A stretch of 64,000 nucleotides of DNA. It comes from Methylobacterium sp. PvR107 (GTDB lineage Bacteria; Pseudomonadota; Alphaproteobacteria; Rhizobiales; Beijerinckiaceae). Shown one piece after another: positions 14,870 to 48,519 of this stretch. The first letter of the stretch is position 1. Each line of letters opens with the position of its first letter. Location: NCBI RefSeq assembly GCF_017833295.1, contig NZ_JAFIBW010000001.1:62001-126000 (forward strand), written 5' to 3'. Below the pieces are notes generated by a model. That model made no database searches and was not told where the DNA came from. It saw nothing but the letters and a program-made list of their open reading frames with translations. The translations under genes and the position numbers were made by a program.

Positions 14870-14922
14870 CTATGAACTGCCCCGGGATTTTCGGAGGCTC
14901 CAACTCTTGAGAGGATGGAGCC

Positions 14923-16151
<1,229 letters not shown>

Positions 16152-16194
16152 CCCAAACCGAACAGCCTCCGGGAAATCCGGAGCGGTTCACCTA

Positions 16195-37869: not shown

Positions 37870-38082
37870 TCACGACGGGATCCGCAGGGTGATCCGCGTC
37901 AATTCCGACGGGCGGCCGAGCCGAGGCGCGAAGCCCGGCCACAGCGCGGTGCCGTTGCTGACGTAGAGCAGCATGCCTCCGACCCGGTAGGCCCCGGAGA
38001 CGAACCCGGCGTTGCCACGTGCAACCAGCCGGTCCAGGCCGCGGAACATGCCGCCGTGGGATCGGACGGCCGACATAGTCAC
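37870..38082 (-). pseudogene. C-terminal remnant of a metallophosphoesterase
   Basis: About 65 residues ending the frame: HGGMFRGLDRLVARGNAGFV, then YRVGGMLLYVSNGTALWPGF and APRLGRPSELTRITLR. This is the closing beta sheet of calcineurin-like phosphoesterases of the YaeI/YkuE type (SxGTGxWGxPxRLGxPSEIT pattern). The metal-binding N-terminal 200 residues are missing. It is a deletion remnant between bciA and the response regulator gene. Confidence 0.6.
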
Positions 38083-38136
38083 AGGGGGACGATCGATCAG
38101 ACCGTCTGCCGGAAACGTTCGGACGGCCGAGGTCCT

Positions 38137-38727
38137 TCAATCGATCAAACGCAACGAGAGCGCACGCGCCACCGCATGCGTTCTGTTGACGACGTTCAGG
38201 CGCTTCATGGCTTGGTCGAAATGGAAATTGACGGTTCGCTCCCGCAAATCGAGGATGAGGGCGATCTCCGCGGACGTCTTCCCGCGGCTGGCCCAGGTCA
38301 ACACTTCCCGTTCCCGACTGGTCAGATGGCCGAACGCGTCGTGGCTCTGCCCGCCGCGACCCGCGCGGAGACGATGCTCCACCACGACAGCCAGCATCTC
38401 GAAGTCGACCGGCTTGGTGAGATAGTCATCCGCGCCCTTGCGGCGCGCGGCGATCTCGCTGCCGCGATCGTCGAGAGCCGTGAGGAACACGAACGGGATC
38501 CGCGCGAGGTGCGGGGCGGTCGAAGCCAACCGCTCGATCAGGTCCAGGCCGTTCATCCCCGGCATGCGCACGTCGCACAGGACCAGGTCCGGAGGCGACA
38601 TCCGGATGGCCGACAAACCCGCCTCCCCGTCCGGGGCGCGATCCACCGTGTAGCCGAGGTCGACCAGGGCCTCCGCGAGCAGGCTCGCCGTTTCCTCGTC
38701 GTCCTCAACGCAGAGTATCCTGGGCAT
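38137..38727 (-). CDS. Two-component response regulator, receiver plus LuxR-type HTH
   Basis: 196 residues, starting MPRILCVEDDEETASLLAEA. Receiver domain about residues 3-118 with Asp in LVLCDVRMPGMNGLDLIE and Lys in GADDYLTKPVDFEML. The C-terminal LuxR/GerE helix-turn-helix has HLTSREREVLTWASRGKTSA, then ALILDLRERTVNFHFDQAMK. The gene overlaps the end of the kinase gene by 23 bases, so the two form a pair. The in-frame extension to 38826 is rejected as it lacks homology. Confidence 0.93.
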   Translation of the reverse strand: MPRILCVEDDEETASLLAEALVDLGYTVDRAPDGEAGLSAIRMSPPDLVLCDVRMPGMNGLDLIERLASTAPHLARIPFVFLTALDDRGSEIAARRKGADDYLTKPVDFEMLAVVVEHRLRAGRGGQSHDAFGHLTSREREVLTWASRGKTSAEIALILDLRERTVNFHFDQAMKRLNVVNRTHAVARALSLRLID

Positions 38728-40306
38728 GCTCCGGCTCCGGGGATGAAAGCGCCCCGTCTCGCGGCAGCGCCAGCATAGCACGGGTTCCGCGGCCCTCTTC
38801 GCTCTCGATGACGAGGCGACCACCATGGCGGCGCGCGATCTCCTCCACGAGGCTCAGCCCGATCCCCGTCCCCGGGATCGTGCCGACGTTGCTCGCCCGG
38901 TAGTAGCGTTCGCGGATCCGTCCGATCTCGCCGCGCGGGATGCCCACGCCCTCGTCCTCGACGACGATCTCGACGCCGGCGCCCGACGGGTAGGCCCGCA
39001 GCCGGACGGGAACGCTGTCCGCCGCGTACTTGAACCCATTCGAGAGCAGGTTGCTGACGGCCAGATGCAGCAGGTCGGGATCGCCGACGATCTCCAGCGA
39101 TGCATCCGGCACGTCGTCGACCAACGCACCGCCCATCCCGATCTCGCGATAGTACCGGCACAGCGACCGCAGCATCTCGGCGAGATCGAAGCGGCGCATG
39201 CGCGGGCGCAGGTTCCCGCCGGTATCCTCCAGCGCCCGCGACAGGCCCGACATCAGGCTCGCGATCCGGAACACGGCGGAACGGATGCGGTGCGCCCGAT
39301 CGGCGATGTCGCCCGGCTTGGCCCGGTCCTTGGTCGCAATCAGCCGCTGGGCGTTCCCGTCGATCGCCATCAGCGGCGTGCGGAATTCATGCGAGACCGT
39401 CGTGATGAAGTTGCGCTGCTCGACGGCGAGGGCGCGCTCCTTCTTCAAGGCGGTGCTCAGCGCCCCGGATTGAATGGCCAGGCGCTTGCGCGATTCGAGG
39501 AGTTCGGTGGTGTTGCGCCGGAACACCGCGAGGGCGCGCGCCATCGCGCCGATCTCGTCTGGCCGCCTCTCGTCGGGGAGCGCGAAATCGGTCTCGTCAT
39601 CCGCGAGGCGCCGCATGCGATCGGCGAGCCGCAGGAGCGGCTGCGAGATGGCGCGCCAGACGTAGACCGTGATGGCGAAGAACAGGGCCAGGGTCCCGAG
39701 CATCAGGTCGGAGACCCAGTCCTGAGCTTCCGCGATGGCCGCGGCCGCCCGGCCGCGGTCGGCCTCCGCGCGCGCTTCTGTCACGAGCGTCAGGTCGAAG
39801 GCGCCGTCGCGGGCCGCGTCGAAGGTGGTCTTCGACAGGCCGTTGAACAGCAGGGTTGCCTGCTCGGCCTCGCCGTCCCTGCTCAGCGCGGCCACGCGCT
39901 CCGCCACGGCTGCGTGCGCGCGCCACAGGTCTTGCAGCCGCACGAGCGCGCTCCGGTCCTCGTCTCGCCGGAGCAGCGCCGCGTAGCGTGCCATCACCTC
40001 CGCGAGATGGGCGGACATGCGCTGCAGCGACGCGAGGCGATCGGGGCGGTCCGCGGGATCCGGGCCCAGGAGGATCTCGGCCTCCGCGGTGCGCGCGTCC
40101 GAGATCCCGTGGTTCAGGCTCCCGAGGATCCGGATGCGCTCCAGCCAGCGGTGGTGCATCTCGCGGGAGAGCGCGTCGGCATGTTCGAGCCGATCCAGGC
40201 TGAGGAGGCGGGCGCCCTCCGTCGCGGCGATGAAGAGGAGCACCATGAGGCCCAGCTTCGCGACCAGGGAGTGGCGCCAGGCCAGGGTCTTGCGCAGCAC
40301 CGACAT
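38705..40306 (-). CDS. Membrane-bound sensor histidine kinase
   Basis: 533 residues. TM1 near residues 16-33, TM2 near 202-222, with a mostly helical sensor domain between them (four-helix bundle appearance, EMHHRWLERIRILGSLNHGI). Then HAMP (LADRMRRLADDETDF), H-box ITTVSHEFRTPLMAIDGNAQ, N box LAVSNLLSNGFKYAADSV, and G boxes EDEGVGIPRG and GTGIGLSLVEEIARRHGG. It phosphorylates the adjacent LuxR-type regulator. The signal is unknown. It is divergent from the polyketide operon at 40531, which it might control. Confidence 0.93.
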   Translation of the reverse strand: MSVLRKTLAWRHSLVAKLGLMVLLFIAATEGARLLSLDRLEHADALSREMHHRWLERIRILGSLNHGISDARTAEAEILLGPDPADRPDRLASLQRMSAHLAEVMARYAALLRRDEDRSALVRLQDLWRAHAAVAERVAALSRDGEAEQATLLFNGLSKTTFDAARDGAFDLTLVTEARAEADRGRAAAAIAEAQDWVSDLMLGTLALFFAITVYVWRAISQPLLRLADRMRRLADDETDFALPDERRPDEIGAMARALAVFRRNTTELLESRKRLAIQSGALSTALKKERALAVEQRNFITTVSHEFRTPLMAIDGNAQRLIATKDRAKPGDIADRAHRIRSAVFRIASLMSGLSRALEDTGGNLRPRMRRFDLAEMLRSLCRYYREIGMGGALVDDVPDASLEIVGDPDLLHLAVSNLLSNGFKYAADSVPVRLRAYPSGAGVEIVVEDEGVGIPRGEIGRIRERYYRASNVGTIPGTGIGLSLVEEIARRHGGRLVIESEEGRGTRAMLALPRDGALSSPEPEHAQDTLR

Positions 40307-40530
40307 GGCGATCCCCCAGCGGACCCGGCGGCCGGGCTTCGAAGGCTTAGGCCCGGCCCGTCCGAGTTCAGCCTGTCAGATTTCACAGGATGACGCCGGG
40401 GGCCACGAACTGGTCTGTAGGCCGCGAGCCGGCGGACGGTCCGTCGCGCCGAGGGGTCACAGGGGGATCGCGTTGATTTCGGACACCGTGACGCCGATGG
40501 GCGGCCTGACCGCGGCCGGACGCCCCTGAG

Positions 40531-42210
40531 ATGACGCCGCATCCCGTCGGTGCCGTTCGCCCCCGGATGCCCGATATCCGGCAGGCGGCCCGAGCGTCCG
40601 TCCCGATCGTCCACGACGTCGCGGACGCCGCCGATCGGCCCGCTCCGACGAACCCGATCGAAGCCATTTCGCCGGCGCCGACCGCCGGGCCCCGGACCTG
40701 GGCCGGCTTCGCCATCCTGTGCGTCGGCATGTTCATCGCCATCCTGGATATCCAGATCGTCGCGACATCCCTTCCGCGGATCCAGGCGGGTCTCGGGATC
40801 GCGCCGGACCGGATCAGCTGGGTCCAGACGGCGTATCTCACCGCCGAGCTGCTCGTCATTCCGCTCACGGGTCCCCTCACGCGCCTGGCGAGCCTGCGCC
40901 GGCTCTTCGTGACGTCGGTGACCCTGTTCACGCTCGCGTCGTGCGGATGCGCCGCGAGCGGCGGCTTCGCCTCGCTCATCGTCTGGCGCGCGCTCCAGGG
41001 TGCGTCCGGGGGCGCGTTGATCCCGACCGTGTTCTCGGCCGTCTTCCTGCTGTTCCCGCCGAACCGCCAGGGCATCGCCACGGCCGTCGCGGGCACGCTC
41101 GCCGTCCTCGCCCCGACCGCCGGCCCCGTCGTCGGCGGCTGGATCACCGAGACGGCGTCCTGGCATTGGCTGTTCCTGATCAACGTGCTCCCCGGCATCG
41201 TCTCGGCCATCGGCGGGTACTGGCTGCTGTCGTCGCGGGACCGGCGGCGCGGACGGCTCAGCGAACTCGATGTGCCGGCCCTGGTGCTCCTGGCCGTCGC
41301 CCTGGGCAATCTGGAGCTCGGCCTCAAGGCGGCCCCGGAATCCGGCTGGACGGCGCCTGCAACCGTCGCACATCTCGGCGCGAGCACGGTGTCCGCCCTC
41401 GTGTTCGTCCGCCGCACCCTGACGGCGGCCCATCCGCTCGTCGAGCTCCGGATGTTCGCGGATCGCCGCTTCGCCGTGGGCTCGGCACTCAGCTTCGCCT
41501 GCGGCGTGGGCCTTTACGGTTGCGTCTACCTCATGCCGGTCTTCCTGGGCTACGTGCAGGGACGCGGGCCGCTCGCGATCGGCGAGATCATGCTCGTCAC
41601 CGGCTTGGCGCAGCTCGCCGCGTCTCCGCTCGCCGTCGCCCTGGACGGGCGCGTCGACGCGACCGTGCTCGCCGTCCTCGGATTCGGTCTGTTCGCGGTC
41701 GGCTCGTTCCTGAGCACGACCCAGACGGCCGCGATGGATCCCGGGGCGCTGGTCGTCCCGCAGGTCGTACGCGGGCTGTCCATCATGTTCTGCCTGCTGG
41801 CGCCGACACGGTTGGCGCTGGGGCAGCTGGCGGCCGAGCGCGTTCCGGATGCCAGCGGGTTGTTCAACCTGATGCGGAATCTCGGCGGCGCCGTCGGCCT
41901 CTCGCTGATCGACACCGTGATCTACGGGCGGATCCCCGGCCACGTATCCGATCTCGTCGCGCGCCTCGCGTCCGGCGATGTCGACGCCGCGCGAGGGGTT
42001 GGCATCCCGCCGGCCGTTTTCGCTGCCCGGTCGGGCAAGCCGATCAGCGAGGCGACCCGTGCCCTCGTCGCGCCGCTCGTCGAGAAGGCGGCCCTGACCG
42101 CTTCGATCGGCGACGCCTGGATGCTGGTCGGAACTCTCAACGTGGTCGCGATCGCCGCCCTGCTGCTCGTCCGCCGACGCGCCGATCCGAGCCTGGAGCC
42201 GAAGCCATGA
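40531..42210 (+). CDS. DHA2-family (EmrB/QacA type) multidrug efflux MFS
   Basis: 559 residues, 14 predicted membrane segments. After a Pro-rich leader the family starts FAILCVGMFIAILDIQIVAT and SLPRIQAGLGIAPDRISWVQ, the DHA2 opening. The start at 40531 may be upstream of the true one; ATG 40567 is possible. The C-terminus is followed by the type III polyketide synthase gene, whose start overlaps the stop (ATGA). It probably exports the polyketide product or protects against it. Confidence 0.9.
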   Translation: MTPHPVGAVRPRMPDIRQAARASVPIVHDVADAADRPAPTNPIEAISPAPTAGPRTWAGFAILCVGMFIAILDIQIVATSLPRIQAGLGIAPDRISWVQTAYLTAELLVIPLTGPLTRLASLRRLFVTSVTLFTLASCGCAASGGFASLIVWRALQGASGGALIPTVFSAVFLLFPPNRQGIATAVAGTLAVLAPTAGPVVGGWITETASWHWLFLINVLPGIVSAIGGYWLLSSRDRRRGRLSELDVPALVLLAVALGNLELGLKAAPESGWTAPATVAHLGASTVSALVFVRRTLTAAHPLVELRMFADRRFAVGSALSFACGVGLYGCVYLMPVFLGYVQGRGPLAIGEIMLVTGLAQLAASPLAVALDGRVDATVLAVLGFGLFAVGSFLSTTQTAAMDPGALVVPQVVRGLSIMFCLLAPTRLALGQLAAERVPDASGLFNLMRNLGGAVGLSLIDTVIYGRIPGHVSDLVARLASGDVDAARGVGIPPAVFAARSGKPISEATRALVAPLVEKAALTASIGDAWMLVGTLNVVAIAALLLVRRRADPSLEPKP

Positions 42211-43280
42211 CGGAAGCCTACCTCAACCGCATCGAGACGGCCGTCCCGCCCCACGACGTCCACGCGGCTTTCGCGGCCTTCGCCCGATCCCAGCTCGCCG
42301 ACGACCGGCGCAAGCTGCGCATCCTGGACCGCATGGTGGAGCGCAGCGGGATCGAGCATCGGTATTCCTGCCTCGCGCCCGGGCTCGACCCGGGCCGCGA
42401 CGCCGTGGATGCCGAGGGCCTCTACCGACCCGGGAGCTTCCCGACGACCGCGGCCCGCATGCGACTCTACGAGGAGCACGCCCCTGCGCTCGCGACGCGT
42501 GCGGTCGAGAAACTCGAACTCGGGGATCAGCGGGACCGCATCACCCATCTCGTGGTGTCGAGCTGCACCGGCTTCTCGGCCCCGGGGCTGGACATCGACA
42601 TCATCGAGCGTTGCGGCCTCAGGGGGTCCGTCGAGCGGACGATGGTCGGGTTCATGGGCTGCTACGCGGCAATCAACGCCCTGAAGATCGCGCGGCACAT
42701 CGTTCGCTCGGAGCCGCAGGCCCGGGTCCTGGTGCTGAACATCGAGCTTTGCACGCTGCACCTCCAGGAGACCTCGGATCTCGAGCAGATCCTGACATTC
42801 CTGCTCTTCGCGGACGGGTGCGCGGCCAGCATCGTCTCCGCCGATCCGACCGGGCTGAGGCTCGACGCGTTCAACGCCCTGCTGACGCCCAACACGCGAC
42901 AGCTCCTGACCTGGCATATCCGGGAATCCGGGTTCGACATGGTCCTGTCGGGCCGCCTGCCCGCGGCGGTGCAGGACGGGATCAGCGGTCGCGCGGACGA
43001 ATTCCTGGCGGGGAACCGGATCCCGGACGTCGACGCCTGGGCCGTCCATCCGGGCGGCCGGACCGTGCTCGACGCCGTGGAGCGCGCCTTCGCGCTCCCG
43101 CCCAGCGCGCTGGCGGTCTCGCGCAACATCTTGCGTCGGTTCGGCAACATGTCGTCGGCGACCGTCATGTTCGTGCTCGCCGCGCTCATGGATCAGGCGA
43201 CGGCGGGTCAGGTCGGTTGTGCGATGGCGTTCGGCCCGGGTCTCGTCGCCGAAACCATGATGTTCCGAAAGGCGGCCTAG
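42207..43280 (+). CDS. Type III polyketide synthase (chalcone synthase-like)
   Basis: 357 residues from the ATG at 42207. The catalytic triad is complete: Cys120 (HLVVSSCTGFSAPGLDID), His281 (DAWAVHPGGRTVLDAVE) and Asn314 (RRFGNMSSATVMFV). The size and layout match bacterial enzymes that condense an acyl starter with malonyl-CoA to resorcinols, pyrones or 1,3,6,8-tetrahydroxynaphthalene-type products. The operon order with methyltransferase and FAD enzyme suits an alkylresorcinol-type product that is then methylated and oxidised. Starter specificity cannot be read from sequence. Confidence 0.93.
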   Translation: MTEAYLNRIETAVPPHDVHAAFAAFARSQLADDRRKLRILDRMVERSGIEHRYSCLAPGLDPGRDAVDAEGLYRPGSFPTTAARMRLYEEHAPALATRAVEKLELGDQRDRITHLVVSSCTGFSAPGLDIDIIERCGLRGSVERTMVGFMGCYAAINALKIARHIVRSEPQARVLVLNIELCTLHLQETSDLEQILTFLLFADGCAASIVSADPTGLRLDAFNALLTPNTRQLLTWHIRESGFDMVLSGRLPAAVQDGISGRADEFLAGNRIPDVDAWAVHPGGRTVLDAVERAFALPPSALAVSRNILRRFGNMSSATVMFVLAALMDQATAGQVGCAMAFGPGLVAETMMFRKAA

Positions 43281-43452
43281 CTCCGCGCGTCCGGCGCCCG
43301 GATCCGGGATCCCGGGCTCGCCGGCCGTGATTCAAAGACGCCGCGGCACCGGGCGGGATGCCGGCGCCCGGACTCCGCGCGTCTTCCGACGCGCGACGCG
43401 GGCGTTCCGGTGCGGGCGGCGTCATTCGATATCGACGCGGGAGAGGTGGTCG

Positions 43453-44271
43453 ATGCCAGCGACGACGGAGACCGAGACCGAGGGATGGCCGGAGCCGCCG
43501 AGGCGGGGTTCCGACGGGGCACCGGCGCCGCAAGGTTCCGGGCCCTCCGGAACCGCGGGGCGGCGCGGGCCCGCGCGCCCTCGCTCGCTGGCCGTCCGGG
43601 CCTCGGCGCAAGAGCAGATGGATGCTCCGGATCTGCCCGAGGCCGCATATGCCGCGCTCCTCGCAGACCTCGCGCGCGTCAACCGATGGACGCTGGCGGC
43701 GCGGCCGACCTTGGCTTTCCTGAGGCGGGCGGCTCGGCGCGCCGGGCGGCTCAGGCTCCTCGACGTCGGCTTCGGGCAGGGCGACATGCTGCGTCGGATC
43801 GCGCGCTGGGCGGCCCGGGAGGGCGTTGCCGTGGCGTTGGTCGGGATCGACATCAACCCCCGTTCGGCGCCGGTCGCCCGCGCGGCAACCGACGGCGGAC
43901 TCCGCATCGAATACCGCACCGGCGCCTACGCGGACCTCGCCGGAGAGGGCTGGGACGTGATCGTCTCGAGCCTGGTCGCGCACCACATGGACCACGCGGA
44001 ACTGCTGGCGTTCCTTCGCTTCATGGAAGCCGAGGCGCGTGTCGGCTGGTTGGTCAACGACCTGCACCGGCACGCCCTGCCCCATGCGGGCTTTCCGATC
44101 CTGGCTCGGGCGATGGGCTGGCATCGGATCGTCCGCGAGGACGGCACCCTCTCGATCGCGCGCGCATACCGGCCGGCCGAATGGCCGCCGATCCTGGCCG
44201 AGGCCGGAATCGCCGAAGCCTCCGTCTCTCGCCGCTTCCCGTTCCGGCTATGCGTCGAGCGCCTCCGCTGA
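43453..44271 (+). CDS. Class I SAM-dependent methyltransferase
   Basis: 272 residues from the ATG at 43453, preceded by GAGAGGTGG. The first 55 residues are Pro/Gly-rich linker, and a later start (MDAPDLPEAAYAALL) is plausible. The SAM-binding core follows: motif I LRLLDVGFGQGDMLRRIAR, acidic loop VALVGIDINPRSAPVARAAT, then IVSSLVAHHMDHAELLAFLR. It probably O- or C-methylates the polyketide. The gene lies 172 bases after the polyketide synthase and overlaps the FAD enzyme gene by 22 bases. Confidence 0.88.
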   Translation: MPATTETETEGWPEPPRRGSDGAPAPQGSGPSGTAGRRGPARPRSLAVRASAQEQMDAPDLPEAAYAALLADLARVNRWTLAARPTLAFLRRAARRAGRLRLLDVGFGQGDMLRRIARWAAREGVAVALVGIDINPRSAPVARAATDGGLRIEYRTGAYADLAGEGWDVIVSSLVAHHMDHAELLAFLRFMEAEARVGWLVNDLHRHALPHAGFPILARAMGWHRIVREDGTLSIARAYRPAEWPPILAEAGIAEASVSRRFPFRLCVERLR

Positions 44272-45326
44272 TCATCGGCGGCGGCCCGGCCGGTGCCGCC
44301 GCCGCCATCGGACTCGCCCGGGCGGGCCTGCGGCCGTTGCTGATCGAACGGAATCCCGAAGCGCAGGATGCCCTGTGCGGCGGCTTCCTGAGCTGGACGA
44401 CGATCCGGCGCCTGATCGATCTGGGCGTTGATCCCGTTGCCCTCGGCGCCCATCGTGTCGGGGCGCTGGCGCTGTTCTCGGGGCGGGACGGCGCCGAAGC
44501 TCGGCTGCCCGCACCCGCCGTCGCCCTCTCGCGCCGCGTCCTCGATGAGGCCCTGCGCGCGCGCGCCCGGGCGGCGGGCGCGGCAATCGAGACCGGGATC
44601 GGGGCGCGGGCCCTGGCGGAGGGCCGGGTGCGTCTCGTCGACGGGGGCGAGATCCGCCCGCCCTGCACGATCCTCGCGACCGGCAAGCATGATCTGCGCG
44701 GTGCCGCGCGCCCGCGCCCGGACGGGGACGCCGCGGTCGGGCTGCGCTGGCGCCTGGGTGGGAGCCGGGCGCTCGCGACGTTGCTCTCCGACCGGGTGGA
44801 GCTGCACCTGTTCCGCGGCGGGTATGCCGGATTGGTCATCCAGGAGGACGGCAATGCCAACCTCTGCCTCGCCGTCCGACGAAGCCGCCTCAGCGAGGTC
44901 GACGGCGCACCGGATCGGCTCCTCCAGGCTGTCGCGGAGGAATCGCCCGCCCTCGGTCTGCGCCTGGCCGCGGCAACGCTCGGGCGCGCCCAGGCGGTCG
45001 CGAACGTACCCTACGGCTGGCGCGCGGGTCCCGGACCCGCGAATCTCTACCGGATCGGGGATCAGGCCGGGGTCATCCCGTCGCTCGCGGGCGAAGGGAT
45101 CGCCATCGCGCTGTGCAGCGGCTTGGCCGCGGCCAACGCGATCGCGCGCGGCGAGCCGGCCGAACGCTTCCAGCGATCGTTCTCGCGAAGGTCGTCCGTC
45201 CCGATCGCTCTGGCCGGATGGCTCTGGCGCGCGGCCGAGACCCCCAATGCCGCCAGGCAGCTGGTGCGCGCTGTCGCCTCCGCCCCGGCGCTCGGGCATC
45301 TGGCCTCGCGGCTGACGCGGATCTGA
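44250..45326 (+). CDS. FAD-dependent oxidoreductase of the polyketide operon
   Basis: 358 residues from the ATG at 44250, beginning MRRAPPLIIGGGPAGAAAAI. Group A flavoprotein with the N-terminal FAD motif GGGPAGAAAAIGLARAGLRP, a GlyAspx-type stretch TILATGKHD, and the C-terminal FAD contact RIGDQAGVIPSLAGEGIAIA. The type fits geranylgeranyl reductase/aromatic hydroxylase-like enzymes. In a type III PKS operon it would hydroxylate or oxidise the phenolic ring to a quinone. It ends the operon. The long frame upstream of this start is a shadow of the methyltransferase. Confidence 0.88.
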   Translation: MRRAPPLIIGGGPAGAAAAIGLARAGLRPLLIERNPEAQDALCGGFLSWTTIRRLIDLGVDPVALGAHRVGALALFSGRDGAEARLPAPAVALSRRVLDEALRARARAAGAAIETGIGARALAEGRVRLVDGGEIRPPCTILATGKHDLRGAARPRPDGDAAVGLRWRLGGSRALATLLSDRVELHLFRGGYAGLVIQEDGNANLCLAVRRSRLSEVDGAPDRLLQAVAEESPALGLRLAAATLGRAQAVANVPYGWRAGPGPANLYRIGDQAGVIPSLAGEGIAIALCSGLAAANAIARGEPAERFQRSFSRRSSVPIALAGWLWRAAETPNAARQLVRAVASAPALGHLASRLTRI

Positions 45327-45505
45327 CCGCAGCTTGCCTCCGACCCGACGCCGGTGGCGCTGGCGACAGAGGGGGATCGGGTCATCGGGGCAAGCCGGTC
45401 ATGCCTGTCGTCACGCCGCGCGCTCCACCTCTCCGAGGAAGCGCCGCCGATGCGGGACCGGCCCGCTCCGCATGGCCCGGACTTCGGCCGATCGAAAGAC
45501 CGGCG

Positions 45506-46501
45506 TTACAGGCCGTTCTCCTGCCGCGCGTCGTCTTTGAGGTGCCGGGTCGCTCTGTAACGGCCAGGTGATAGGCCATGATGCCGGTGAAAAAGCTTTG
45601 AGAACGCGGCGACGGACTCGTAGCCGACGCCGGTCGCAATGCGTGCGATCCCCAGGTCACTCGTCTCGAGCAAGAAGGCAGCTTCCGACATCCGGCGCGC
45701 GATCAGATAGCGGTACATCGATTGGCCGACGAGCTTGGTAAAGCGGGCCGAGAACGCCGAGCGACCGAGCCCGACCTGTTGCCCCAGCTCGTCCAATGTC
45801 CAGGACCGATCCAATCGCTTGTGCATCAATCGAAGCGCCGGTCCGATATGCGGGTCCGTTATCGCCCCGAGCCAGCCGCCTTCGCCGGGACGCAGCGATT
45901 GCGACCAGCTTCGCAGCACCTCGACGAAGAGGACCTCCGTCAATCGTGAGAGGACGACGTCCTGGCCGGGACGCGGCTGCGCCGACTCGCGCACCATGCG
46001 CCGCAGGATCTGCTCGAGCCACGCACCGTCCTCCGCCGATTTGAGGTGGAGGACGGGCGGAAGCAGCTCCAACAGGCTGCTCCGCGACGGCTGTGCCACG
46101 GTGAACTTGCCGCAAATCATCGTGGAGCAGGGCTGAGCGCCGCCGCCATGGCGAACAATGCCGTGATGCGCGGACGACCGATCGAGATCGACGACCGAGA
46201 ACGGCTCTGCTCGGCGATCCGAGTAGAATTCGTGGGGCTCGCCGCGCGAGATGACGACAAGGTCGCCCGCGCTCATGTGGAATTCGCGTTCCTGATCGAG
46301 AGCGAGAATCGCCGAGCCGTGGCTGACGTAGTGGAACAGCGCGTACGGGCGTTGCGGCAGTGCCAGGTTCCAGGGATGGCCGAGCTCGAAATGGAACAGC
46401 AGCGTCCCACCCAGGCGCACGCGGTCGAGTACTTCGGCAAGGATGTCCATAATGGCGACGATAAGGTCCCGGACGATCGGACACAACACGCGGACGATCA
46501 A
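45506..46501 (-). CDS. AraC-family regulator with cupin sensor domain
   Basis: 331 residues from 46501; MDILAEVLDRVRLGG at 46450 is the more likely start by homology. The N-terminal cupin domain has FHYVSHGSAILALDQEREFH, then MSAGDLVVISRGEPHEFY. The C-terminal AraC helix-turn-helix pair has WTLDELGQQVGLGRSAFSAR, and DLGIARIATGVGYESVAAFS with LFHRHHGLSPGRYR. It resembles AraC_binding/cupin_6 regulators of the stress type. It is divergent from the exported hydrolase gene at 46660 across 158 bases and is a candidate regulator of it. Confidence 0.9.
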   Translation of the reverse strand: MIVRVLCPIVRDLIVAIMDILAEVLDRVRLGGTLLFHFELGHPWNLALPQRPYALFHYVSHGSAILALDQEREFHMSAGDLVVISRGEPHEFYSDRRAEPFSVVDLDRSSAHHGIVRHGGGAQPCSTMICGKFTVAQPSRSSLLELLPPVLHLKSAEDGAWLEQILRRMVRESAQPRPGQDVVLSRLTEVLFVEVLRSWSQSLRPGEGGWLGAITDPHIGPALRLMHKRLDRSWTLDELGQQVGLGRSAFSARFTKLVGQSMYRYLIARRMSEAAFLLETSDLGIARIATGVGYESVAAFSKLFHRHHGLSPGRYRATRHLKDDARQENGL

Positions 46502-46659
46502 GCTCTATCGTTCAAGACACAGTCATATTAGGTCCTGCCGAGGGCGTTGACGCATCGTGCAATCGTCCTTCGTTCCTGGCGCAAGGTTCAGGGCGCGAAC
46601 ATTTCGCAGCGCTTGCACATTCGCGACCTCGCGTTATCCGCCCGTCGGCAGGAGTTATT

Positions 46660-47427
46660 ATGCAAGGTGTTGTTCTGTCCCTGGCCGCGGCCTTGATGTC
46701 TGCAACGACATTGGCCGCTGCCCACGCCACCGCGCTGCCCAAGGGGGCGGCTCACAACATTGTCCTTGTCCATGGCGCGTTTGTCGATGCATCGAGCTGG
46801 AAGCCCGTCGCCGACATCCTCACGAAGAAGGGCTACACCGTCACGCGCGTCGAAAATCCTCTGACCTCTCTCGCCGCCGACGTCGAGGCCACCGAGCAGG
46901 CATTGGCAAAGCAGAGAGGCAAGACGGTTCTCGTCGGCCATTCCTGGGGTGGCGTCGTCATCACGCAGGCCGGCAACGATCCCAAGGTCTCGGCGCTCGT
47001 CTACGTCTCCGCCTTTGCGCCGGACGTGGGCCAATCCCTGGCGACCCTCGCCAAGAGCGGTCCGGCCACGGAAGGGGCTGCGGCGATACATCCCGACGAC
47101 AAAGGCAATCTCTACATCGATCCCAAAGTCTTCCCATCCGCGGTCGCGGCCGACCTTCCCCCGCAGATCGCCCAATCCCTGGCGAACCATCAGCTTCCGT
47201 TGAGCCACACGGCGTTCGAAGCGCCGGTCGATGCGGCCGCGTGGCACCACAAGCCGACGTTCTACGTGATCAGCACGCTGGACAAGGTGATCGCACCGGA
47301 AGTCCAGAAGCTGTTCGCCGCCGCCATGAAGGCCCAGACGACGAAAGTCGCCGGCAGCCACGCCTCGCTCGTCGTTCACGCGACCGAAGTCGCCGCGGCG
47401 ATCGAGAAGGCCGCGCTCGCCAAGTAA
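46660..47427 (+). CDS. Exported alpha/beta hydrolase
   Basis: 255 residues. A Sec signal peptide spans residues 1-22 or so (MQGVVLSLAAALMSATTLAA). The mature enzyme has the oxyanion strand NIVLVHGAFVDASSWKPV, the nucleophile elbow TVLVGHSWGGVVITQAG (Ser95), an acid in STLDKVIAPE, and His in VAGSHASLVVHATEVA. It looks like the small EstA/salicylate-esterase-like hydrolases. Periplasmic location and the divergent AraC gene suggest an inducible ester or signal-degrading activity. Confidence 0.88.
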   Translation: MQGVVLSLAAALMSATTLAAAHATALPKGAAHNIVLVHGAFVDASSWKPVADILTKKGYTVTRVENPLTSLAADVEATEQALAKQRGKTVLVGHSWGGVVITQAGNDPKVSALVYVSAFAPDVGQSLATLAKSGPATEGAAAIHPDDKGNLYIDPKVFPSAVAADLPPQIAQSLANHQLPLSHTAFEAPVDAAAWHHKPTFYVISTLDKVIAPEVQKLFAAAMKAQTTKVAGSHASLVVHATEVAAAIEKAALAK

Positions 47428-47878
47428 CAGGGCCGCTCCCGGTCCGCCCGCGCCGTGAGCGGCTGCGCCTGCCGAGAGCGGGGCCGCCTGGACCTGGAGC
47501 CGGCGATGGCGTGGCCGTCCTGGCGTTCCGTCACGATCGAGCGCAGTCTCTGGAAGGCATCTCGTGCAGAGCCAGTAATGAAACTCGATACGATTGCAGT
47601 CGATCGCTTGAAAATCCTGAGATCCAGACCGTTCGACGCTGGCGTGACTGCGCGCAAGCCCGCGCTCGGCCCTATGGCAACACGGAAGCTCGTGCCGTTG
47701 CCCGCCCTCGTGATGCGACGATCACGACCTTGCTGCGGGACTGTGCAGGCCGAGACCGTCTGATCACGGTTCGGCTGGCGAGCCCAGGCGTCTCGAAACT
47801 GCGGGACCGCAACGCAGACAGGGTCCGTCGTTCGGTTGTCCGGGCCGACAGGCTCGAAATGGGAAAGGAAATTCCGGC
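47428..47878. other. Intergenic region without a recognisable gene
   Basis: About 450 bases. Short frames occur on both strands, with basic, Arg-rich translations typical of shadows, and none has a ribosome site. I see no family resemblance. It must contain the promoter of the exported protein at 47879. Confidence 0.45.
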
Positions 47879-48406
47879 ATGTTCAAGAACTGTCTTGCCA
47901 GCGTCACCGCCGCGGCTCTCTTCACTGCGGCTGCCGCGGGAGCATCGGCCGCCAAGGCGGAGCCTCTGGATTCTACGAGTGTTGATGCGATCAGATCGCA
48001 GTTCAGTCGGCTTATGGAACTGGCCAACAAGCACGATTTCAAATCTCTGCATGATATGTTCTGGCAATCGCCGACAACCCTGTTGGTGGCGAAGAGCGCG
48101 AACCCGGCCGAGGGAAACTGGGCCGGCTATTGGGGCAACGAAGCGATCGATCAAAAGCTGCATGACATCGGCAGCTCCGGTCCGGTCGTGCTCGAGCCGG
48201 ATTATTCGAAGCTCATGGTGGTCGGACTGACGCACGACGTCGCGGAGTCTTACGTGCCGATGAAGATCACCGTTTCGTACGCGGGACAGGACGGAACGCC
48301 CAGACCGTTTCTGATGATCATCAATTGGCTGCGCGTCGGGACGGACTGGAAGGTCGCCGCCGAGATCATTCTCCCCGTACCGCCGGCATCCGCGACAAAG
48401 GGCTAG
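47879..48406 (+). CDS. Exported SnoaL/NTF2-like protein
   Basis: 175 residues. Signal peptide at residues 1-24 (MFKNCLASVTAAALFTAAAA). The mature domain has the cone shape of NTF2-like proteins: helices IRSQFSRLMELANKHDFKSL and WQSPTTLLVAKSANPAEGNW, then strands DVAESYVPMKITVSYAGQDG and PFLMIINWLRVGTDWKVA. The pattern (length, Trp in the last strand) is of a SnoaL/DUF4440-type protein. Its ligand or reaction is unknown. Confidence 0.75.
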   Translation: MFKNCLASVTAAALFTAAAAGASAAKAEPLDSTSVDAIRSQFSRLMELANKHDFKSLHDMFWQSPTTLLVAKSANPAEGNWAGYWGNEAIDQKLHDIGSSGPVVLEPDYSKLMVVGLTHDVAESYVPMKITVSYAGQDGTPRPFLMIINWLRVGTDWKVAAEIILPVPPASATKG

Positions 48407-48519
48407 ATCCCCACGCTCCGCACGCGTCCGATCCCGCCGCCCGCGCCGAGGGCCCGTCCCGGAGGTTGCGGCCGCGAAGTCCGAAGCCGGGAGCCTATTC
48501 CGCCACTGGAGGCTCAGGC

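Follow-up and report, generated by a model that had tools for sequence, protein, structure and literature searches.

Comparative analysis of a 64,000-nucleotide stretch of the genome of Methylobacterium sp. PvR107 (bases 62001–126000 of its single contig of 6.36 Mb; hereafter, the window) revealed a four-gene operon whose probable product is a modified phenolic lipid exported from the cell. The genes encode a DHA2 (EmrB-type) exporter of the major facilitator superfamily (MFS), a type III polyketide synthase (PKS), a class-I S-adenosylmethionine (SAM) methyltransferase (MT) and a flavin adenine dinucleotide (FAD)-dependent enzyme. The locus is of an ordinary kind, the phenolic-lipid trio PKS-MT-FAD, and is set apart by its dedicated pump, a changed flavoenzyme motif and the division into two rearrangeable pairs. 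New here are the co-distribution of pump and PKS, the reversed order of the gene pairs in M. soli, the apparent exchange of MT types between PKS lineages and the loss of the KVCGE motif from the flavoenzyme.

Gene organization and coupling

As the initial annotation had it, the four open reading frames (ORFs) lie in a row on the forward strand (Table 1), and both overlaps that it described are present: the exporter and PKS genes share four bases (ATGA, 42207–42210), and the MT and FAD genes share 22 bases (44250–44271). The 22-base overlap also occurs in two related genomes of the genus (G043, locus L119; G098, locus L120) and in the M. soli locus L038; since it is retained in the latter despite DNA identity of only about 73%, it is conserved rather than fortuitous. 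Between the PKS and MT genes, in contrast, there is a spacing of 172 bases, and the locus is thus composed of two coupled pairs, exporter-PKS and MT-FAD. The same division is seen in a 20-kb piece of M. soli, in which the match to the window is limited to the four genes, ordered MT-FAD and then exporter-PKS and set in other surroundings. Because these genes alone match, with the order of the pairs reversed, the four genes behave as a stable unit made of two pairs.

No sigma-70-like promoter was detected in the interval 40250–45600 (0.3 expected from shuffled sequence), and the one terminator-like site found there (1.1 expected) lies inside the exporter gene; the PKS–MT gap yielded neither kind of site. 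Overall, the coordinated pathway proposed in the initial annotation, taken as a phenolic-lipid pathway with a dedicated pump, has good support from the overlaps, the conserved neighbourhood and the co-distribution described below, although the PKS and MT genes are not coupled. Two tRNAs called by ARAGORN at 44747 and 44999 were rejected, being located within the FAD gene and absent from the Rfam results.

Polyketide synthase and its predicted product

The PKS matches PF00195 (84.7 bits) and PF02797 (83.5 bits; cut-offs 27), is the sole type III PKS found in the source genome and is 97% identical to the PKS of a genome named Methylobacterium mesophilicum. Alignment to PKS18 places the Cys-His-Asn triad at C152-H281-N314, C182 at the position of PKS18 C205, which is described as belonging to the acyl tunnel (PMC6274091), and W236 at the position of PKS18 L266. 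The last residue also aligns with THNS Y224, a position equated with that of CHS G256 (PMC6274091), and the step of nine residues from W236 to M245 equals that from G284 to M293 in ArsC. The position of ArsB W281, located through PKS18, THNS and the nine-residue step and not by alignment to ArsB itself, is therefore held by Trp; replacement of this Trp by Gly in ArsB is reported to convert the resorcinol product to a pyrone (PMC6274091). Among the 109 rows of the PKS clade (101 of them distinct), W236, M245, C152, C120, H185, N314 and S316 are invariant, H281 is kept in 108 and C182 in 105. The active-site residues (C152-H281-N314, W236, M245 and C182) point to a predicted long-chain product of the alkylresorcinol type.

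Methyltransferase and flavoenzyme

The MT is a soluble class-I Rossmann SAM enzyme according to its PF13649 match, structure model and fold search; PF04140, the family of isoprenylcysteine carboxyl methyltransferases (ICMT), is absent from its Pfam matches, class-I domains being found instead. It is related to the PRK06202 methyltransferase (NF004851) yet lies outside that family (145.2 bits; cut-off 243). Translation most likely starts at ATG 43453, where the Shine-Dalgarno-like GGGAGAGG, the start codon and the reading frame are preserved in three genomes. The first in-frame GTG (43327) was rejected as the start, the frame upstream of ATG 43453 being broken by a 2-base indel in one of the three.

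The unusual Pro-rich leader noted in the initial annotation has an open frame in all three genomes, but it is not conserved. It comprises about 40 residues, the core beginning at approximately residue 43, whereas the M. soli MT has no leader and starts at MTRLAARALAEEQMD, about where the conserved domain begins. In three pairwise comparisons, 10–12 of 54–55 leader codons carried amino-acid changes vs 6–15 of 217 in the body, and the leader has low predicted local distance difference test (pLDDT) values in the structure model. Given its absence from M. soli, fast codon change and low pLDDT, a conserved targeting role was rejected, and we interpret the leader as an N-terminal extension that presumably arose after an older start codon was lost.

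The FAD enzyme falls among the geranylgeranyl (GG)-reductase-like and flavin monooxygenase families, without reaching any of the NCBIfam cut-offs shown, including that of the geranylgeranyl reductase family TIGR02032 (81.8 bits; cut-off 158.8). Its sequence ALCGG, in the motif ALCGGFLS, stands where relatives have KVCGE.

Distribution of the trio and of the exporter

PKS matches were found in 8 of 111 genomes of the genus: four at 80–100% identity (the source genome, G043, G098 and the M. soli-like G048), three at 30–33% and one fragment with stops. In the order-wide sample, 133 of 397 genomes had a match, 26 of them (the source genome included) at 50–100% and the rest at no more than 38%. The named loci are the best 80 of 524 relatives and hence near relatives of the window PKS. 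Several loci come from metagenome bins and may be mislabelled.

Under a strict rule, 80 of 101 distinct near-clade loci carry MT and FAD genes downstream of the PKS on the same strand. Among the other 21, both genes are present at L023, L030, L086, L095 and L110, although the ORFs as called did not satisfy the rule, and the Mesorhizobium loci L092, L094, L098, L099 and L112 have them as an upstream, divergent pair. L004 is a short copy of the M. soli locus; in the longer version, L038, both genes are upstream on the same strand. Four loci run past a contig end (L060, L063, L073 and L109), four have an MT without a recognised FAD gene (L043, L045, L058 and L069), and two have neither gene despite room for them (L042 and L079). 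Antisense frames aside, the vicinity of the PKS holds no further gene family that recurs as widely. The PKS-MT-FAD trio is thus a common alphaproteobacterial one, and its pump-bearing version is uncommon. Two Mesorhizobium soli strains each have two near-clade PKS copies on separate contigs (L042–L045). Trios of the same clade also occur in bins labelled Polyangiaceae, Deltaproteobacteria and Planctomycetota (L068, L072 and L113), which group together in both the PKS and MT trees, as either cross-phylum transfer or mis-binning would produce.

The exporter exceeds the TIGR00711 cut-off (349.8 bits vs 230.2), in agreement with its initial annotation as a DHA2 pump. Within 110 genomes of the genus, its ortholog (70–100% identity) is found in exactly the four PKS-bearing genomes, and the same four have a match to the divergently encoded histidine kinase at E ≤ 1e-120, a threshold outside which weaker kinases fall. 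The kinase of G048 is 48% identical to that of the window and lies about 28 kb from the PKS. As the other three genomes are close relatives, the co-distribution of pump and kinase with the PKS rests mainly on G048. Related pumps adjoin the PKS at L044, L045, L046, L050, L053 and L061, and a pump stands beside the PKS in at least 10 of the 101 distinct near-clade loci, where short flanks at some loci may hide others. In genome G341, a distant (33%) type III PKS is followed at a short distance by a DHA2 pump 60% identical to that of the window (L035, 2529–4023), the same pump type being joined there to another PKS system.

Exchange of methyltransferase types

The 90 typed MTs comprise 59 of subfamily B, 22 of subfamily A, in which Methylobacterium is included, and nine of subfamily C. 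Subfamily B is split from the group of A, C and Methylobacterium with support of 100/100 in the MT tree, which holds 48 of the 52 rows of the PKS tree; a separate MT alignment comprised 34 rows. The types were defined from the MTs, and a quick PKS tree was already known before the approximately unbiased (AU) tests. A single clade of the PKSs associated with type-B MTs was rejected (p-AU 0.0006); PKSs with type-C MTs and, in the best tree, those of Methylobacterium nest among the B-linked PKSs. Neither a single clade of PKSs with type-C MTs (p 0.125) nor the joining of the Methylobacterium PKSs to those with type-A MTs (AU p 0.08) was rejected. Exchange of MT types relative to the PKSs is accordingly the better supported conclusion at the level of the order, where the trees indicate it, and a PKS/MT chimera in Methylobacterium itself is no more than suggested. 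Such exchange across PKS lineages predicts chemical diversification.

Relationship to known phenolic-lipid loci

In srsABC of Streptomyces griseus and pkqABC of Mycobacterium smegmatis, reported to convert an alkylresorcinol into a methylated quinone (PMC9927152, PMC6669644), a PKS is likewise followed by a methyltransferase and an oxidoreductase/hydroxylase. The resemblance to srs asserted in the initial annotation survives in this order of PKS, MT and flavin enzyme and in the reaction logic, but the MT is of class I, whereas SrsB is described as an ICMT (PMC6669644); srsABC is moreover a three-gene core without an exporter, and in the window 172 bases separate the PKS and MT genes. In the absence of an ICMT, membership of the operon in the srs group was rejected. 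An ICMT gene adjoins five of the seven distant PKS loci examined (L005, L006, L007, L036 and L037); at L034 and L035, the single ORF checked at each had no Pfam match. The Methylobacterium loci L005–L007, which are bps/srsAB-like, resemble the window locus in that a methyltransferase adjoins a type III PKS, but differ in PKS identity (30–33%), ICMT partner and tree branch. Since ICMTs accompany the distant PKSs and a class-I MT is found here, srs/bps-like loci exist in the genus and the window locus is not one of them.

The operon of the planctomycete Gimesia maris and the cyanobacterial hidABC (hierridins) likewise unite an MT, a FAD oxidoreductase and a type III PKS. PKSs from such planctomycete operons are reported to have made C15/C17 alkylresorcinols, which were methylated, probably at a carbon atom, when the MT and the oxidoreductase were expressed along with the PKS (PMC10896814). 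Their order is MT-FAD-PKS, with the PKS first in some cyanobacteria, vs exporter-PKS-MT-FAD in the window and MT-FAD followed by exporter-PKS in M. soli, and no DHA2 pump is described in the parts of these accounts used here. The trios of Mesorhizobium, Devosia, Aureimonas, Bradyrhizobium and other Alphaproteobacteria share homologous MT and FAD genes, mostly in the same order, and PKSs that are 50–80% identical among the matches listed; they differ in having mostly subfamily-B MTs, few recorded pumps beside the PKS and the FAD motif KVCGE. Genome reports have likened type III PKSs of Roseomonas and Pseudovibrio to alkylresorcinol/pyrone synthases (PMC8776678, PMC11796379); the parts of these reports used here show no product. 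No paper naming the product of an alphaproteobacterial PKS-MT-FAD trio was found in listings and excerpts of the openly licensed literature. Many Alphaproteobacteria from soil or associated with plants carry trios of this kind, and the compact pump-bearing version offers a route to the identity of the product and to whether such lipids are secreted.

Proposed pathway and alternatives

From these features we infer a route from substrate to secreted product. The PKS would load a fatty acyl-CoA (or acyl-acyl carrier protein, acyl-ACP) on C152, add three malonyl units and cyclise the resulting tetraketide in a cavity narrowed by W236, giving a 5-alkylresorcinol or alkylresorcylic acid. The MT would then methylate the ring or a hydroxyl, and the FAD enzyme would oxidise the ring, in the simplest case forming a hydroquinone that proceeds to a quinone, making the quinone anticipated in the initial annotation a plausible, hypothetical product. 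The pump, translationally coupled to the PKS, would export the product, with the divergently encoded two-component system as the probable regulator of expression.

Several observations count against this route. The PKS and MT genes are separated by the 172 bases noted above; the same Trp as W236 is present in the pyrone synthase PKS11 and in all seven distant rows, and is for this reason a lead to a resorcinol product, not a proof of one; and in the fold search the flavin fold agreed about as well with halogenases and reductases as with hydroxylases. The Methylobacterium FAD enzymes also lack KVCGE, which is present in 24/24 other relatives aligned; the alignment contained the window protein and the 25 FAD ORFs, out of 98, that passed a motif and length filter. 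The planctomycete oxidoreductase is reported to have shown no oxidation, its role being left open (PMC10896814). It is possible, if unlikely, that the FAD enzyme halogenates or reduces without hydroxylating the ring, so that a methylated (perhaps chlorinated) alkylresorcinol resembling hierridin, and not a quinone, is exported; monooxygenases nevertheless score within about 4 Z in the fold search, and no halogenase family is among the Pfam matches. The FAD protein sequence also lacks WxWxIP, the motif of flavin-dependent halogenases.

Formation of alkyl-pyrones by the PKS, with subsequent decoration of the pyrone by the MT and FAD enzyme, would agree with the pyrone synthase PKS18 being the nearest solved structure and with a Trp compatible with pyrones in PKS11; it is made improbable by Leu266 of PKS18 and Gly of ArsC at the place of W236 and by the same gene trio accompanying resorcinols in planctomycetes. 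Very little weight is given to a small or aromatic starter (THN-, phloroglucinol- or DpgA-like) and a soluble pigment: DpgA is the best NCBIfam match, but its 105.8 bits are far under the cut-off of 425, and although a second Cys, C120, is placed by alignment as in THNS, C182 and other tunnel positions match long-chain enzymes and DpgBCD-like genes were not seen among the recurrent neighbours. It is highly improbable as well that the pump has nothing to do with the pathway, being a multidrug exporter placed upstream by chance. DHA2 matches at E ≤ 1e-100 occur in 100/110 genomes of the genus, so that a different paralog (non-orthologs among the matches listed reach at most 47% identity) is nearly genus-wide; the ortholog, however, is confined to the four PKS genomes and joined to the PKS by the ATGA overlap, and related pumps stand beside other near-clade PKSs and, at L035, beside a distant one.

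Production and secretion of a modified phenolic lipid could also be cast in a bolder form, which we regard as speculative and rather doubtful. The locus would be a secreted-phenolic-lipid unit in which exporter-PKS and MT-FAD are modules of separate origin; it would have a sensor kinase to itself and pass between Methylobacterium lineages. With ALCGG in place of KVCGE, its altered flavoenzyme would give an extracellular alkyl-hydroquinone or a related phenol that srs, pkq and hid are not known to make and that acts outside the cell, not in the membrane.

Neighbouring genes and genomic surroundings

The operon is flanked by regulatory genes on the opposite strand (Table 1).

Table 1. Genes of the operon and flanking regulatory genes in the window
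Feature	Position	Strand	Basis
DHA2 (EmrB-type) MFS exporter	40531..42210	+	TIGR00711 above cut-off; ortholog confined to four PKS genomes of 110; ATGA overlap with PKS
Type III PKS	42207..43280	+	PF00195/PF02797; triad C152-H281-N314 with W236, M245 and C182; alignment to PKS18 and others
Class-I SAM MT, 272 aa	43453..44271	+	PF13649; start-site comparison; model and fold search
FAD-dependent enzyme, flavin monooxygenase/GG-reductase superfamily, motif ALCGGFLS	44250..45326	+	PF01494; below TIGR02032 cut-off; model and fold searches
Sensor histidine kinase (4HB-HAMP-HisKA-HATPase), divergent; probable regulator	38705..40306	-	Pfam; E ≤ 1e-120 only in four PKS genomes of 110
Response regulator with LuxR-type helix-turn-helix (HTH); probable kinase partner	38137..38826	-	Pfam PF00072, PF00196
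AraC-type regulator (cupin and HTH), convergent neighbour, role uncertain	45506..46501	-	Pfam; in 3/110 genomes

Positions 38,082–48,407 of the window have collinear counterparts in G043 and G098, with about 93% identity. To the left of this block, the window differs from both genomes, which agree with each other; because they share this flank, one rearrangement in one lineage suffices, which weakens the argument that the block is mobile. A segment of about 180 bases (37882–38060) has matches in many genomes of the genus that stop at or within a few bases of 38060, right where the shared block is bounded on its left. At 47,670, about 318 bases present in G043 (L119, 4905–5441) and G098 are missing, and a DUF302 gene is broken in the window. 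Elsewhere, a 1.3-kb segment (14873–16191) contains an Rfam ALIL pseudoknot (15204–15320), typical of IS3-family elements; the segment has an 80% identical copy in G098 (L120, 2374–3692), separated by about 0.65 kb from the right boundary of the shared block.

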